64,000 nt of DNA, from NCBI GenBank assembly GCA_030430575.1, contig JAUIKF010000001.1, forward strand, positions 1-64,000. Reading direction: 5' to 3'. The position numbers and the translations under genes were made by a program. Of the stretch, positions 10,245-23,868 are shown piece after piece. The stretch's first letter is position 1. Every line of letters begins with the position of its first letter. The notes below the pieces were generated by a model that was not told the DNA's origin, made no database searches, and saw nothing but the letters and a program-made list of their open reading frames with translations. The DNA comes from Bacteroidia bacterium. GTDB taxonomy: Bacteria > Bacteroidota > Bacteroidia > J057.

Positions 10245-13200
10245 TTATTTCTTACTTCTCCATTTCCACCACCCGCCTACCCCAAGAATCCCTAGGGCCA
10301 TTAATACCCAGGCCCATATCGGCCAATCAGTCCCTTTTTCAGAAACGGGTTTTCCATCTCCTAACAAGACAAAAGTACCCCAAAAATAAGGGTGCAAACG
10401 CTCACTGGTAGCTAGGAAGTCCAACTTTGCCTGCCGAAGCGCTTTGTCCTTGGGCATCCCCGATTGGAGGTGCTGATAAAAACGATTCATCAAAACACTT
10501 GTAGAAGCATCGTCTGCTTGCCAAAGGCTCATCACGACATTAGGGCAGCCCGCGTAACGGAAGGCCCTGGAGAGGCTCATAAGGCCTTCTCCACGCTGTA
10601 GTTTGCCTACACCCGTATTGCAGGCGCTGAGAATAGCGAGTTCTGCATTGAGGCGCATATTGTATAACTCATAAGCATGAAGAAATCCGTCTTCTGTGGC
10701 AAGGCTATCTGCCTGATCATCAGGGTGAAAGGCAAATCCTGCATACATCGGCTGGTCATCACGGGTAAATGCATGCATGGCCAAGTGAAGCAATTGATAT
10801 TTGCTGGCTTCGGATTTAAAGCGACCTTCCGTCGCTTCTTTTGCCAAAAAGGCGTCGCCATTTAAGAGTTGAGCTACCTTGGCCACTTCACCTTGATTGA
10901 ACCGAAGCGGGCTGAGGGAAATGGAAGTATCAATTTTCCAGCCATCGTGGGATGTAGGCATCTGATAGTCAGGTGCATATCCTCCAAAATAGCGAGAAGT
11001 ACTTTGCCCATTTCCTCCCACCTCTTCCATCATCAAGGTAGCCGAGTAAGCATACGATATATCGTAATCACGAATCAGGTAAGGCAAATCCCCAAAATCA
11101 TCTTCTTTACCAAAGGAATGCTTGCGGCTGATAAGCACTTCAAAAGGTAAGTACCCCAAGAATCCATCAGGCACAATGATGAGTTTTTGAGGGGTAAAAC
11201 CAGGTGTGAAAGTTGGAGAATTCCAGGCTATTTGTGGCTCTGAGTGGTCCAAAACTGGAGCCAATAGCATTTGGTATATGGAATGAGAAACCCCAGCAAA
11301 CCGCCTTATAGCATTAGGAGAGCTACCTTCTTCCATGATATTAGCACGGTCTCCGAGTGATTTCACAAAATCCTTAAGATATGCTCGATAAAAACGCTCA
11401 TCCGGGATCTTATGGACATATATTGAGTGGGGGGTAATGGAAAAAACGTATAGGGCACTATCTCCCTGAAAATAGCTCACCAAGGTAGCTTTTTCCACCC
11501 TCAATCGATTTTGTATATCAGAAATATTAGCTGGTTTCTGACTGTATTTCAAGGAAAAATAGGCAGGAAAATGGCTTTCAAAAACCGAAATGAGAGAATC
11601 GTGGGACTGTTTGAGGTGAAAATACCGGTCTTCCCATTCTGCCAGTTTCTCTGAAGCTAAATCAGGTTGCAGCCCTTCTTCAAACAACTTTTTCTCAAAA
11701 TACGCCATGTCCACTTGAAGGCGTTTCTCAAATTGCAGAAGCGAGTCAGGAATACCCGCAAATTGAAGGGCCTCTTCGGTCTTCAGGGTTTCTAGCAACA
11801 GGATACTTTTTCCTTTTTCCATGCAAGCAAAAATTGTCTGAAGATAGATTGGGTCTTGCGTTTGTTGAAATAGTTCCAGTGCCACTTCAATGGTTTTCTC
11901 ATAGATCGACATCGCTTGTCCAGCCAGTACTTGCTTAGAACCAGTAGCTTTGAAGGAAATTCGCCATCGGTCGATGACGCCGATAACCTCTTCTAAGGAG
12001 GCCAGGAATCCTTTCATTTCCATTTTCGAACCTCCTTTTTCCTCCCATACACCCGCTTCCAACTCTATCACTTGCAACAAAAAATTGTGGACATGAGGCA
12101 CTTCTTCAAAGCTTTTTTTGCCTCGCTTCAAAACGACTTTAGCTTTGTGAAATTGGTCTAATGCCTGATCATAGGCCTTCATCTTCCGGTAAATACCGCC
12201 TAATGCCGCATGGATGCGCACCGTTCGCTCTTGGTGGTAACCAGGATAGGAAGCCTGTAGTTCCAGGGCTTTCTCTAAATAAACACGACCCTGAGTCGTG
12301 TCATTTTCTTTACCTGCACAAATACCCAAATTCATCCAAACAGGAACCGTTTTGTAATGATCTTTAGAGAGTACCTTTTCCCATTCGCCTAAGGATTTCG
12401 AAAAATAATCCTTTGCCAACGTGAGGTTTCCTTCATCCATTTCACAGATTCCCAGGTTGTTGTATATCCAAGCACCTTCCTCATTCCCATTTGGGAAAAT
12501 AGGGCTAGTGATGTCAAAAGCACGCTTCAGGTAGTCACGGGCTTCGGTATAAGAACCCCGATCCCGATAAATAAGACCAATTTGATTATAAGTAAATCCT
12601 ACCAAATAGTGTGCAGGCCCCAGAATGTCCTTGCGGATTTTCAAAGATTGCTGCAAATAATGTAAAGCCTGATCAAAATCTCCCAGCTCTGTGTATACCA
12701 TGCCCAGATTGAAATAGGCTAAAGCGATCCCCAGGTGATTTCCCATGCCTTTTTTCAGGTAAATATCGATAGCTTGAAAAAGGACCTTCCGACCGCCTTC
12801 ATAATCTCCTTTGGTCAAAAGGGCGCCGCCCATATTATTATAGCTCATCGCGATCTGGGGATCAGCGGGCGGCAGGTTGGCTTTTTGGATTTCTAAGGTG
12901 CGGTTAAGGTAGTCCAATGCCACATGAAGATTGCCTTGGCGAAAGCTGACGACGTACAAATTGCCATTTGCACCGGCCAATTCTCTTGGTGAAACGGGAA
13001 ACTCGCCGCTTTCCAGCAGCCTCAAGCGTCGCTGGAGGTAGTCTACGGCTTGGGTATAATCCTGGCGTTCAATCGACACGATGCCCAAAGCATTGAAGAT
13101 TTTTCCAGTTACGAGATGTACGGCCAGCCCGTTATCTTCCATGAGTGCCAAGCCTATCTGCAAGGCAGAGTCTGCTGCATCCAGGTGCCCCAGACGCCGT

Positions 13201-13700
13201 TCACAATCGCCAAAGAGGCGATAAGCATCCGCCAAATCAGCATAGGCGAGGTCCGATTGGGGCACTTGCTTCCAATGCGCTATTGCCTGGGTTAAGGATT
13301 TCTTTGCTGGCACAAATGCATTCATTTTCTCCTGTGAATTGGCCACAAGAAATAAGGAGAGGGCCATTAAATGATGGGATTCAGAGAAATGGCTTTCCGC
13401 TATTTCAAAGGCCGCCTCGAAGACCATTTTGCCAGCTTCTCGCTGCCCGTTAAAGACCAAGGCATTTCCCAGGGCATGCTGACTTTTTACCAATGCTTTC
13501 CAAGCAGATGCAGATTCGTAAGCCTCTGAAGCAATTTCAAGGCTATACACGGCACTATCATACTTGTTTTGTTCCAAATACTCACGCCCTGCCTGATACC
13601 ATTTTGTCGCCTCCAAGGTATCTCCATTTTGACTAAATAACTCTCCCATTCCCCCCAGAATTAGGCAAATCATCAGAACAGGTATCCTAAGAGAAATCAT
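10245..13700 (-). CDS. TPR-CHAT domain protease-like protein, membrane anchored
   Basis: 1151 residues. A signal peptide (VLMICLILGGMGELFSQ) is followed by more than ten tetratricopeptide repeats, for example YNNMGGALLTKGDYEGGRKV and FNLGMVYTELGDFDQALHYL, spanning about 30-540. A helical linker leads to a C-terminal CHAT domain at about 820-1115. CHAT is a caspase-related cysteine peptidase fold, and both catalytic residues are present: His976 in LLHLAMHAF and Cys1027 in AILSACNTGVG. A single transmembrane helix (WAWVLMALGILGVGGWW) and the basic tail KWRSKK end the protein. This implies an exported body tethered to the inner membrane. It is divergent from an ECF sigma gene, 150 bases away, that is followed by an anti-sigma-like TPR protein. 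Proteolytic activity is inferred, not shown. Confidence 0.88.
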   Translation of the reverse strand: MISLRIPVLMICLILGGMGELFSQNGDTLEATKWYQAGREYLEQNKYDSAVYSLEIASEAYESASAWKALVKSQHALGNALVFNGQREAGKMVFEAAFEIAESHFSESHHLMALSLFLVANSQEKMNAFVPAKKSLTQAIAHWKQVPQSDLAYADLADAYRLFGDCERRLGHLDAADSALQIGLALMEDNGLAVHLVTGKIFNALGIVSIERQDYTQAVDYLQRRLRLLESGEFPVSPRELAGANGNLYVVSFRQGNLHVALDYLNRTLEIQKANLPPADPQIAMSYNNMGGALLTKGDYEGGRKVLFQAIDIYLKKGMGNHLGIALAYFNLGMVYTELGDFDQALHYLQQSLKIRKDILGPAHYLVGFTYNQIGLIYRDRGSYTEARDYLKRAFDITSPIFPNGNEEGAWIYNNLGICEMDEGNLTLAKDYFSKSLGEWEKVLSKDHYKTVPVWMNLGICAGKENDTTQGRVYLEKALELQASYPGYHQERTVRIHAALGGIYRKMKAYDQALDQFHKAKVVLKRGKKSFEEVPHVHNFLLQVIELEAGVWEEKGGSKMEMKGFLASLEEVIGVIDRWRISFKATGSKQVLAGQAMSIYEKTIEVALELFQQTQDPIYLQTIFACMEKGKSILLLETLKTEEALQFAGIPDSLLQFEKRLQVDMAYFEKKLFEEGLQPDLASEKLAEWEDRYFHLKQSHDSLISVFESHFPAYFSLKYSQKPANISDIQNRLRVEKATLVSYFQGDSALYVFSITPHSIYVHKIPDERFYRAYLKDFVKSLGDRANIMEEGSSPNAIRRFAGVSHSIYQMLLAPVLDHSEPQIAWNSPTFTPGFTPQKLIIVPDGFLGYLPFEVLISRKHSFGKEDDFGDLPYLIRDYDISYAYSATLMMEEVGGNGQSTSRYFGGYAPDYQMPTSHDGWKIDTSISLSPLRFNQGEVAKVAQLLNGDAFLAKEATEGRFKSEASKYQLLHLAMHAFTRDDQPMYAGFAFHPDDQADSLATEDGFLHAYELYNMRLNAELAILSACNTGVGKLQRGEGLMSLSRAFRYAGCPNVVMSLWQADDASTSVLMNRFYQHLQSGMPKDKALRQAKLDFLATSERLHPYFWGTFVLLGDGKPVSEKGTDWPIWAWVLMALGILGVGGWWKWRSKK

Positions 13701-13795
13701 ATGCGGGAGATAGAAGGTAAGGGTAACTTGAATCTAGGTCGTCTGATTGGTCCTCAAGTTAAAGAAAAGATTTTTTCTGTATCAAATGGCCCTAT

Positions 13796-13826
13796 TTGCC
13801 TTCTCCCATTTCTGTGGTTAATTTTG
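13796..13826 (+). promoter_or_regulatory. Bacteroidota-type promoter TTG-N20-TAATTTTG for the sigma gene
   Basis: TTG at 13796-13798 and TAATTTTG at 13819-13826 are 20 bases apart. The ATG of the sigma factor lies 23 bases downstream at 13850. The presence of this promoter argues against a start at the in-frame TTG at 13796. Confidence 0.6.
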
Positions 13827-13849
13827 GTGAAAGCAGACGCCTCAATCAA

Positions 13850-14464
13850 ATGTTCAAGCGCATTTCCAACCATTCTGATCAAGATCTGATCGCCGACATA
13901 CAAGCCGGTGGTGCTCGCCGTCAACGGGCTGTCAATCAGCTTTTTCGTCAATATACAGGCTTTATCTTTCGAGGCATCAAGCAATATCGCCTGCAAGAGT
14001 TGGAGGCCAAAGATGCCTATGCAGATGCAGTGGTCGTGCTTACAGATCACGTCATTTCGGGCAGGTTTGAGGGCAGAAGCAAAGTGTCTACTTATCTTTT
14101 TCAGATTTTTTCGAATAAATGCGTTGATCAGGTTCGTAGAAATACGACTTACAAAAGTGAACAAGAGAAAGACTGGACTCATGAGTTTCCAGACTTGCCA
14201 GACAGTTCCAAGGATTTCCTGAATCGGTTGATCAAATTGGAAGAATTTGATCAAGTGAAGGGGCTCATGGAGCAGTTAGGAGAAAGGTGTAAAGAGTTGA
14301 TCTGGGCTGCAGATTACTGGGGGTATAAGCCCGATGAGATTGCGGAAAAGATGAATTTCAAAACAACCAAAAGCGCCATTACTGCCAAATACAAGTGCAT
14401 GGAACGCCTTAGAAAGCTTATTCAGAAACAAAAGAATCCACGTGGAAGAACAATTGATATATGA
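13850..14464 (+). CDS. ECF-type sigma-70 family RNA polymerase sigma factor
   Basis: 205 residues from this ATG. Region 2 is recognisable (LFRQYTGFIFRGIKQY, then VSTYLFQIFSNKCVDQVRR, the part that binds core polymerase and the -10 region). Region 4 follows as a helix-turn-helix (YKPDEIAEKMNFKTTKSAIT, then KCMERLRKLI). A longer frame begins at a TTG at 13796, but a promoter overlaps that codon, so the ATG is preferred. The stop overlaps the next gene by 23 bases, which indicates translational coupling with the anti-sigma-like protein. The gene is divergent from the TPR-CHAT gene. It probably directs a small regulon that may include its own module. Confidence 0.85.
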   Translation: MFKRISNHSDQDLIADIQAGGARRQRAVNQLFRQYTGFIFRGIKQYRLQELEAKDAYADAVVVLTDHVISGRFEGRSKVSTYLFQIFSNKCVDQVRRNTTYKSEQEKDWTHEFPDLPDSSKDFLNRLIKLEEFDQVKGLMEQLGERCKELIWAADYWGYKPDEIAEKMNFKTTKSAITAKYKCMERLRKLIQKQKNPRGRTIDI

Positions 14465-15191
14465 CCGGATTGACCGCTACCTTTCAGGCCAAATGACGCC
14501 TGAAGAAGGGCAAGCATTTGAGGCGGAGGTAAAAGCAGATCCTACGCTTGCGGCTGAGGTGGTCCTTCAGACCCAGGCACGGCATGCTGCACGTGCCTCG
14601 GCCAAGGATGCCCTCAAAGCGCAACTCATGCAAGAGTTGAAAGACATAAAACCAGCTGCGCCAGTTCGCCAGCATCCTTTTACGCGCGTCCATATGGTAG
14701 CGGCGGCAGTTATCATCTTGCTTATTGTAGGCCCCCTACTCTATCAGGCATTACAGCCCGACAAAATGTCTGGAGAAGAACTCTACGCGGAAGTGTTTGA
14801 TCCCCAAATCACCGCAACTAGAGGGGATACCTCTTCCACTTCTATCAGCTTACAGCAAGCTTTGGCACCTGCTACCCAAGGAGATTTCGCTGCTTCCATA
14901 TCTCGGTTAGAAAGGCTTGTGGCTGATACTGCTTTCACTCAAAAGTCTAAGGCTTATCTCTCCTTAGGAATTACATACCTACAGGCAGAGCAGCCTGAGA
15001 AGGCCTTAGAAAGCTTCCAGAAGGTAGGGGTTAAGAGTTATTATTACAGTGAAGCGAATTGGTATACTGCGCTGGCTTATATGAAGCTTGGTGACCGTGG
15101 CAATGCTTATTTTACCCTAAAAGATATAGAAATGGTTCAGAGTCATCCCTATCAGCAGCAGGCTGCTTATGTGTTGAAACGGATGAAGTAG
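14442..15191 (+). CDS. Membrane anti-sigma-like protein with periplasmic TPR domain
   Basis: 249 residues, GTG start inside the end of the sigma gene. The cytoplasmic part (1-80) has the pattern DRYLSGQMTPEEGQAFEAEV, which is typical of Bacteroidota anti-sigma factors. One transmembrane helix follows (about 84-102, MVAAAVIILLIVGPLLY). The outer part contains TPR-like repeats, including AYLSLGITYLQAEQPEKALESF. The overlap with the sigma gene and the topology suggest that it holds the sigma factor at the membrane and senses a signal outside. No canonical zinc-binding HxxxCxxC motif is present, so it would belong to a zinc-independent class. The partner relationship is inferred from position and domain layout. 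Confidence 0.75.
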   Translation: MEEQLIYDRIDRYLSGQMTPEEGQAFEAEVKADPTLAAEVVLQTQARHAARASAKDALKAQLMQELKDIKPAAPVRQHPFTRVHMVAAAVIILLIVGPLLYQALQPDKMSGEELYAEVFDPQITATRGDTSSTSISLQQALAPATQGDFAASISRLERLVADTAFTQKSKAYLSLGITYLQAEQPEKALESFQKVGVKSYYYSEANWYTALAYMKLGDRGNAYFTLKDIEMVQSHPYQQQAAYVLKRMK

Positions 15192-18923: not shown

Positions 18924-19077
18924 GTCTCGTGGCGAGTCTTCGAGTGGCCCTTCGGCAAGCTCAGGACAAGTCTCGCAGTGAGGAGCTCCGCGACGAACGG
19001 TCTCGCTTCTCGTAGCGAGGGCTGAGTCTTCGAAGCCCGAGCGGTCTCGCAGTGAGCCCCCTTGGGGCGAACGGTCT
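18924..19077. repeat. Array of GC-rich hairpin units
   Basis: Units of roughly 30-45 bases begin TCTCGC or TCTCGT and end CGAACGG or CGAGCGG: about 18924-18970, 18971-19000, 19001-19044 and 19045-19074. Each has an internal stem such as GGGCTGAGTCTTCGAAGCCC. The same unit type recurs at 33576-33849. The preceding bases 18873-18912 are a GTTTTAAGTTTTAGGTTCTA word repeat. No gene is supported in the 267-base gap. Confidence 0.8.
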
Positions 19078-23751: not shown

Positions 23752-23868
23752 GGGCTTGTTTACTGTTTCTTATTGAACTTGAGTTTGCACTTGAACTTGA
23801 ATTTGATTTTGCACTTGAGGTTTTTCTGAAACACCTCTTTACTATTAAAAAATTGACACAAATACTAA

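Follow-up and report, generated by a model that had tools for sequence, protein, structure and literature searches.

In the CalpL/CalpT/CalpS system of type III CRISPR, a cytoplasmic Lon-SAVED protease that is switched by cyclic oligoadenylate cuts an inhibitor and so frees a sigma factor. In the type III-E system Craspase, the protease Csx29 cuts Csx30, the inhibitor of CASP-sigma (PMC10028731), and the cut sites are described as varying among orthologues, being located after L, M or A (PMC11106740). Outside CRISPR, DdvA of Myxococcus xanthus is a transmembrane anti-sigma factor of the extracytoplasmic function (ECF) sigma factor DdvS, for which the signal is given as unknown (PMC4374960). 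Here we analyse a locus within a 64,000-nucleotide stretch of a Bacteroidia bacterium genome (contig JAUIKF010000001.1, positions 1 to 64,000; "the window" means this whole stretch), in which, as in Craspase, a tetratricopeptide repeat (TPR)-CHAT protein with a His-Cys pair, a neighbouring gene resembling a sigma inhibitor, and an ECF sigma gene are found together.

The coordinates (Table 1) confirm the arrangement given in a preliminary description of this DNA: the TPR-CHAT gene is head to head with the sigma gene, the 3′ end of which overlaps the gene for a 249-residue membrane anti-sigma-like protein by 23 nt. His976 and Cys1027 of the CHAT protein are both present as described. We propose that the trio is probably an envelope signalling module, in which the exported CHAT protein acts as a site-1 protease that cuts the anti-sigma protein after R127 and thereby frees the sigma factor.

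Recurrence of the trio

The trio is a repeated module, and its linkage goes beyond chance. In the genome that contains the window (8.16 Mb), there are 39 matches to CHAT and some 58 ECF genes. Sorting domains of the type IX secretion system in its proteins, as well as named relatives, point to the phylum Bacteroidota. An ECF sigma gene lies within 10 kb of 20 of the 30 strong CHAT matches, compared with 5 of 84 histidine kinases (Fisher 9.6e-11) and with 14% expected. Distances were taken from match start to match start, using 57 full-length sigma matches together with one from a second search (C67, itself beside a CHAT gene), and leaving out eleven short partial sigma matches. The count varies because it depends on the faintness of the sigma matches accepted: it is 19/30 with the 57 full-length matches of one search and 14/30 with the 51 above the model cut-off, the histidine kinase control having been run for the 20/30 count only.

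Maps of open reading frames (ORFs), which cover the fetched stretches only, gave the following counts of TPR-CHAT genes that have a sigma gene within 9 kb and a TPR anti-sigma gene directly after it: 18/30 in the window genome (G000), 11/21 in G001, 9/12 in G005, 6/13 in G007 and 0/1 in G003. Two further genomes (G002 and G004, 1/1 each) were fetched through a sigma match, and so are no tests of linkage. Seen from the sigma factor, the anti-sigma gene is directly downstream of 64 of the 71 sigma genes surveyed, 45 of which also have a CHAT gene within 9 kb.

Of 296 genomes of the phylum that were searched at E 1e-12, 95 contained a match to a profile built from 51 anti-sigma proteins. We examined 34 loci, one per genome and picked by the anti-sigma match alone, and found a TPR-CHAT gene within about 7 kb in 24 of them. 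These loci comprise 29 returned by the search outside the window genome (20 with TPR-CHAT) and five from further genomes (4 with TPR-CHAT); all 34 genomes were selected for an anti-sigma match, and the CHAT counts in the loci see only the fetched stretches. Across the same 34 genomes, 55 of 74 CHAT matches are located no more than 10 kb from a listed anti-sigma match, where density alone would give 0.99. The neighbourhood of TPR-CHAT, ECF sigma and transmembrane TPR genes, on whose conservation in Bacteroidota the preliminary description depended, is therefore found, and recurs across families of the same class and in another class-level group. When the sample is anchored on CHAT instead (118 genomes), at least 39 of 88 CHAT matches outside the window genome are paired with an anti-sigma match. 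By family the paired fractions, which are lower bounds among the anti-sigma matches listed, are 12/13 (f30), 19/28 (f47), 4/7 (f31), 2/4 (f21), 1/1 (f28) and 1/6 (f40). Some families commonly carry the module, whereas in others it is missing or has diverged beyond detection. On a quick tree of 101 CHAT proteins, linkage requires 21 changes compared with 25.9 after shuffling (7 of 500 shuffles as low), which indicates weak clustering.

The gene order is variable: the genes may be divergent, convergent, or in one co-directional row of sigma, anti-sigma and CHAT (L152, L163, L170 and L171). Aureibacter tunicatorum also has such a row, on its plasmid pAT7; the gene in the middle is annotated as hypothetical and matches the anti-sigma profile (E 1.7e-26) but no NCBIfam model. 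This plasmid was reached through a plasmid search with the CHAT domain alone, which matched 204 records, one of which (pAT7) was examined; with the window anti-sigma protein as plasmid query, one other plasmid was matched and pAT7 was not. Beside the pAT7 row (L208:5558-10599) are genes for a 49-residue peptide with GG motifs and for an annotated peptidase-containing ABC transporter, an HlyD-like adaptor and TolC, which look like a secreted peptide system.

Several modules have further genes between sigma and CHAT (L029:5372-7387, L032:4582-6627, L017:6584-7462 and others), encoding proteins with type IX secretion system (T9SS) sorting or PKD domains, and some of the intervening proteins have instead a CHAT-like C-terminal membrane helix and basic tail. 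At one locus the place of CHAT is occupied by a gene for a protein of 2133 residues (L047:1307-7708; C50:7306-13707), which lies head to head with the genes of a sigma factor and a TPR anti-sigma protein, a pair that belongs among the closest paralogues of the window sigma.

Predicted topology and linker covariation

The AlphaFold model of the window CHAT protein (mean predicted local distance difference test score, pLDDT, 83.5) consists of a helix at residues 5-21, TPR helices, a CHAT fold that extends to about residue 1113, and a last helix at 1126-1150. A set of 101 related CHAT proteins, each 800 residues long or longer, shows hydrophobic stretches at the N terminus in 86 cases and at the C terminus in 92, the latter with a positive tail in 88. 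These termini fit the prediction in the preliminary description of an exported protein with a C-terminal anchor, here placed in the inner membrane so that the protease and the anti-sigma TPRs share one side; the topology is based on structure models and a hydropathy count. Three CHAT proteins of family f47 (L174, L175 and L176) stop right after the CHAT domain and have no C-terminal membrane helix. The catalytic His and Cys are both kept in 44/44 sigma-linked rows of the alignment and in 24/24 phylum-set rows that have letters there. They are also both kept in 31 of 36 unlinked rows, the remainder being four halves of two split domains and one that has lost both; rows gapped at both catalytic places were skipped. 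The sequences accordingly point away from a cytoplasmic or catalytically dead CHAT protein, either of which would have counted against the scheme of the preliminary description.

The model of the 249-residue protein (mean pLDDT 92.1) has helices at residues 2-14, 20-32 and 34-68, a long helix at 82-104, and a TPR array at 132-248; TPR_1 also matches this protein. The long helix precedes the TPR array, and the TPRs are predicted to be on the same outer side as CHAT, as had been described. The NCBIfam anti-sigma model NF052375 matches 25 of 51 aligned relatives and zf-HC2 matches 4 of 51; profile and fold together suggest that the inner half of the protein may hold the sigma factor. Fold searches with the window protein were dominated by TPR proteins, and barely probed the inner domain. 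Mirror-tree comparisons of 44 modules gave r 0.52 between sigma and the inner half of the anti-sigma protein, and r 0.40 between the anti-sigma TPRs and the CHAT TPRs; every correlation is positive, and direct contact cannot be told apart from shared ancestry on this basis.

One TPR anti-sigma protein (L032:2474-3229, minus strand; C48:24473-25228) contains the stretch RALVMLAACETQEGRVNVGEGILSLSRV, which resembles the CHAT segment around the catalytic Cys. Of its 32 residues, 16 are identical to the best CHAT and 10 to the best other anti-sigma protein. The CHAT-profile E-values for this protein (1e-8) are inflated because the profile alignment contained the L032 protein itself; the remaining 63 anti-sigma proteins scanned gave no CHAT profile match at E up to 10. 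The likeness may reflect either gene conversion or chance.

The linker between the membrane helix and the TPRs of the anti-sigma protein contains a motif around a proline, followed by R, M or L and then by G or S, which in the window is R127-G128. Residue 127 covaries with columns of the CHAT protein. Among 69 sigma-linked pairs, Arg127 is accompanied by CHAT Glu938 in 43 of 44 (the 44th being a gap in a fragment), compared with 6 of 25 pairs without Arg (Fisher 6.8e-11). The next CHAT columns within residues 601-1125 are D1064 (1.3e-7) and S1025 (5.3e-7), and the column that follows is at 2.7e-4. When 199,215 variable column pairs are sorted by correlation, the 127-938 pair comes second, and no other of the best 25 has so small a p; the top-correlated pair rests on ten sequences that share one residue. 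Residue 127 has no comparable link with the columns of the sigma factor (best of 176, p 0.0038, in 45 family-f1 pairs).

Because kinship could mimic covariation, a correlated-evolution likelihood test was applied to 199 columns (residues 861-1116); its tree, made with FastTree from 68 CHAT proteins, left out the columns of E938, D1064 and S1025. E938 again ranks first (likelihood ratio test statistic, LRT, 33.95, p 7.6e-7), followed by D1064 (17.6, p 0.0015) and S1025 (16.6, p 0.0024), where the 199 columns have a median LRT of 3.7 and a 95th percentile of 9.8. The link between Arg127 and Glu938 is present after thinning to less than 55% identity (59 pairs, 5.7e-9), in the pairs that lie within 3 kb or belong to the phylum set (57 pairs, 41/42 against 2/15, 5.8e-10), and, each taken singly, in the window genome (18 pairs, 0.001) and in the phylum set (24 pairs, 0.002).

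The combination E-S-D at 938/1025/1064 is found in 40 of 44 Arg-type pairs, and E938 together with D or E at 1064 in 42 of 44, compared with 4 of 25 other pairs; the window has both E938 and D1064. Met- and Leu-type pairs have mixed sets, some of them hydrophobic (V-A-A, I-A-A, L-A-A), and two with the full E-S-D. In clan CD proteases, P1 specificity is described as being set by three regions, namely alpha1 (or L1), L4 and L5, which supply the S1 residues Arg87, Gln184 (two before Cys186) and Arg233 in caspase-7, Asp365, Asp462 and Glu500 in the Arg-cutting MALT1, and hydrophobic residues in the Leu-cutting MARTX-CPD (PMC4357240). In the CHAT model, E938 is located in helix 935-946, S1025 is two before Cys1027, and D1064 is in the loop after the strand ending SLW. 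The three residues thus appear to occupy the same three S1 regions as in other clan CD proteases. Separase is described as reading P1 Arg through Asp D2151, which Csx29 lacks (PMC9729208); we do not equate D1064 with D2151. Taken together, the covariation and the predicted S1 location suggest that CHAT most likely cuts the anti-sigma protein after R127.

Table 1. Features of the trio and their positions in the window
Feature	Position	Strand	Basis or remark
TPR-CHAT protease gene	10245..13700	-	1151 aa; CHAT Pfam match, model
Signal-peptide-like N terminus, residues 1-23	13632..13700	-	model helix 5-21; hydropathy only
TPR array, about residues 28-600	11901..13619	-	Pfam TPR_12 E 3.3e-55; model
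CHAT (caspase/separase-like) domain, residues 806-1115	10356..11285	-	Pfam CHAT E 3.3e-59; fold relatives Csx29, separase
E938, predicted S1 pocket residue, first helix of active CHAT half	10887..10889	-	top covarying column with anti-sigma residue 127
Catalytic His976	10773..10775	-	invariant in 38/38 aligned; aligns with His of Csx29 and DdvA
S1025, predicted S1 residue, two before catalytic Cys	10626..10628	-	third covarying column; not significant after correction in tree test
Catalytic Cys1027	10620..10622	-	invariant in 38/38 aligned; aligns with Cys of Csx29 and DdvA
D1064, predicted S1 residue, loop after SLW	10509..10511	-	second covarying column; not significant after correction in tree test
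C-terminal membrane helix 1126-1150 and basic tail	10251..10325	-	model, sequence
Divergent intergenic region, 149 bases	13701..13849	.	inverted repeat TAACTTGA-N22-TCAAGTTA at 13724-13761, mid-region
ECF sigma factor gene	13850..14464	+	204 aa from ATG; NCBIfam TIGR02937
Membrane anti-sigma-like gene	14442..15191	+	249 aa, GTG start
Cytoplasmic anti-sigma-like helical domain, residues 2-68	14445..14645	+	model; NF052375 matches 25/51 aligned members
Membrane helix, residues 82-104	14685..14753	+	model, hydropathy
Predicted cleavage site R127/G128 in linker 105-131	14820..14825	+	conservation, covariation
Outer TPR domain, residues 132-248	14835..15185	+	model; YbgF/BamD-like fold, VIA Z 15.8, 117 residues, root mean square deviation (rmsd) 1.9

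The first ATG of the sigma ORF is the start used in Table 1, and a TTG start is possible at 13796; the sequence submitted from codon 3 matches the NCBIfam sigma70-ECF model with E 1.2e-16. A Pfam scan of eleven neighbouring ORFs at 5.5-20 kb identified Peptidase S46, DUF1152, a cytochrome c-like ORF and an SBF transporter above cut-off, together with weak phosphoribosyltransferase and zinc-ribbon matches, and five ORFs had no match. No cas family is among these eleven ORFs, the genome elsewhere not having been searched for cas genes, and no CRISPR-like array is among the direct repeats of window positions 1-30000, the part of the window scanned for arrays. Within the parts scanned, the statement of the preliminary description that the trio has no Cas genes or arrays therefore holds. 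The repeats that were seen are short tandem repeats at 1350-1397 (TCAAAC units) and at 23773-23818 (TTGAACTTGA-like units of 12), and two 34-base copies starting GTCTCGCAGTGAG at 18970-19003 and 19044-19077, which are 76% alike and 74 bases apart.

Proposed mechanism and rival explanations

The module may work as follows. The 249-residue membrane protein would hold the sigma factor through its inner half. CHAT would be exported, and its last helix would anchor it in the inner membrane; from the predicted topology, its TPRs and protease would then face the TPR side of the anti-sigma protein. A signal, probably bound by the CHAT TPRs, would switch the protease on, and CHAT would then cut the linker just outside the membrane after Arg127, a step to which the covariation lends support. 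Destruction of the anti-sigma protein might be completed by an RseP-type site-2 protease together with cytoplasmic proteases, which would free the sigma factor; the genome has an RseP homologue (G000:C127:100982-102310, 219.4 bits, above cut-off). CHAT would thus take the role that DegS has toward RseA, but as a caspase/separase-type enzyme. The preliminary description had suggested that an outer CHAT protease cuts the outer TPR domain. The covariation of linker and S1 columns supports cutting of the anti-sigma protein by CHAT, and moves the likely cut from the TPR domain to the juxtamembrane linker at R127-G128. Further CHAT substrates beyond the anti-sigma protein are possible.

A number of observations weigh against this proposal. 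The site at residue 127 was spotted by eye before the covariation test was made. After correction for 199 columns, E938 survives and D1064 and S1025 do not, and a strict independent-pair test (treekit) found two usable pairs on supported branches and hence is powerless. Several Met or Leu pairs retain an acid at 1064. Six pairs without Arg carry Glu938, and five of these are unexplained; the other (C107) was probably paired wrongly by distance, its right anti-sigma gene being beyond the contig end. The assignment to S1 uses sequence and secondary structure. The match of the window anti-sigma protein to NF052375 ("anti-sigma factor") has E 5.6e-6 and is under the model cut-off. Ten of the 30 CHAT genes of the window genome lack an ECF sigma gene at a distance of 10 kb or less, and in twelve other sampled families 0 of 29 CHAT matches are paired, among the anti-sigma matches listed. 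The three paralogues closest to the window CHAT (C11_35405, C85 and C15_139845, the last at a contig end) have no linked module. No orthologous trio of the window's own module was found elsewhere, its closest CHAT paralogues mostly having no linked sigma gene; a locus search with the window CHAT returned 4 loci, of which only L054 (a Balneolaceae metagenome-assembled genome) has a CHAT profile match, and that one has no sigma or anti-sigma profile match. Finally, one large cluster of similar proteins supplies a direct co-directional neighbour to 25 of 79 CHAT genes, and accounts for 30 of their 98 co-directional neighbours.

This last observation is what would be expected if CHAT were an output of the system. 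In such an arrangement the sigma factor would drive an operon of secreted proteins and TPR-CHAT, CHAT would process those proteins, and the anti-sigma factor would be controlled by other means, as it is in FecI/FecR. Six proteins of the neighbour cluster were scanned: four match a T9SS sorting domain, one of them under cut-off, and two match DUF7619. They may be sigma targets, signal sources or substrates. The divergent layout, which is commonest in family f1, and the third of window-genome CHAT genes with no nearby sigma also fit an output role. It does not explain why predicted S1 columns should covary with a linker residue of the anti-sigma protein, nor does it sit easily with the co-directional rows of sigma, anti-sigma and CHAT; moreover, the window CHAT has no direct neighbour from the secreted-protein cluster. 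A shared sigma-dependent promoter, to which the preliminary description had pointed as a check, was sought with a gapped k-mer test in the upstream regions, start codon included, of 64 sigma genes and 49 divergent genes compared with 536 controls. The best words among some 82,000 possible were found in 5/64 against 0/536 (nominal p 5e-9) and in 6/113 against 0/536 (nominal p 1.5e-9). We do not defend these words, because each is in few genes, the regions include the start codon, and the two sets are unlike each other; this weak test hence gave no convincing shared motif. On balance we consider an output role unlikely.

CHAT could also be a co-sensor that binds the anti-sigma TPR domain and does not cut, as the CHAT part of DdvA may do within one chain. 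The union of anti-sigma and CHAT in DdvA, and the correlated tree distances of the two TPR regions in the 44 modules, would suit this role. The complete retention of His and Cys in the linked rows would not, and the columns that covary with residue 127 are in the protease half, which makes a co-sensor quite improbable. We give still less weight to a defence or cell-death system that shares Craspase-like parts by happenstance. A role of CHAT proteases in gasdermin-linked cell death is described (PMC9729208), but PADLOC gives only a generic TPR model here, the scanned parts have neither an array nor a cas family, and many copies per genome with secreted-protein neighbours are not what such a system would lead one to expect. 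Chance adjacency might be suspected in a genome so rich in CHAT and ECF genes; it is rejected by the comparison with controls (20/30 against 5/84) and with density (55/74 against 0.99 expected), being refuted at the family level, and retains almost no credence. An exported site-1 protease is the reading that we consider most likely.

Comparison with known systems

If the site-1 protease reading is correct, the role that DegS has in anti-sigma signalling is filled here by a caspase/separase-type protease, which acts beyond the inner membrane and without CRISPR. The module is present in several families, and stands beside 18 of the 30 TPR-CHAT genes of the window genome. A survey reports that a class I anti-sigma gene adjoins only 6% of Bacteroidetes ECFs (PMC7406223), and so this class of module may explain part of Bacteroidetes ECF control. 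More tentatively, and as an idea that we regard as rather doubtful at present, Bacteroidota might run many envelope lines in parallel, every line having a separase-like site-1 protease and an anti-sigma factor of its own and being partly insulated by a P1/S1 code (E-S-D for Arg, a more hydrophobic set for Met or Leu); the Craspase output module and the fused DdvA would then be captured or fused offshoots of this older pathway. The module would also offer a natural background for the Csx29-Csx30-sigma unit. The prediction is sharply and cheaply testable, since it concerns one Arg and three pocket residues.

The locus resembles DegS/RseA/RseP in having a membrane anti-sigma protein with an outer domain, and a predicted outer site-1 protease, and an RseP is present in the genome. 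DegS is a PDZ-domain serine protease, whereas the window protease is a caspase/separase-type cysteine protease with TPRs. As in CalpL/CalpT/CalpS, a protease (here predicted) would cut an inhibitor, and a sigma factor would be freed. Genes for a caspase, an ECF sigma factor and a TPR protein (DUF1822) are reported to adjoin near EACC2/TRADD-N systems; these neighbourhoods contain other domains, and the part of that source which deals with them describes no membrane TPR anti-sigma protein (PMC8195603). In the open-licence literature searched, which excludes subscription papers and preprints, "CHAT domain" and "anti-sigma" co-occur only in the Craspase paper.

Csx29 (7y9x_B) is a fold relative of the window CHAT (VIA Z 27.5, 610 residues, rmsd 9.6), although some TPR proteins score higher. 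No Csx30 chain is among the matches listed for the anti-sigma profiles (for profile A1 the best 60 of 309, filled with TPR proteins; for profile A4, 24). Membership of type III-E Craspase was considered and is rejected: positions 1-30000 contain no array, the eleven neighbouring ORFs contain no cas family, and no Cas7-11 is near the trio in the parts scanned. The window protease also differs from Craspase in being predicted to be exported and membrane-anchored, its inhibitor in being a one-helix membrane protein with outer TPRs, and the module in being predicted to be Arg-specific, where Craspase cuts after L, M or A. The parallel with Craspase that the preliminary description drew stands in that the same three kinds of part are present. 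The likeness is a functional one and implies no claim of common descent.

DdvA is the closest non-CRISPR precedent. It is listed by Foldseek for the CHAT model, and is not among the best 50 rows of VIA. The solved chains of DdvA (8rot and 8rw5, matched to the Myxococcus protein by name) contain a CHAT domain with His and Cys, so that CHAT and anti-sigma are in one chain there, whereas in the window they are two separate genes. Domains that are fused in DdvA and are neighbours here form the pattern expected of proteins that act together.

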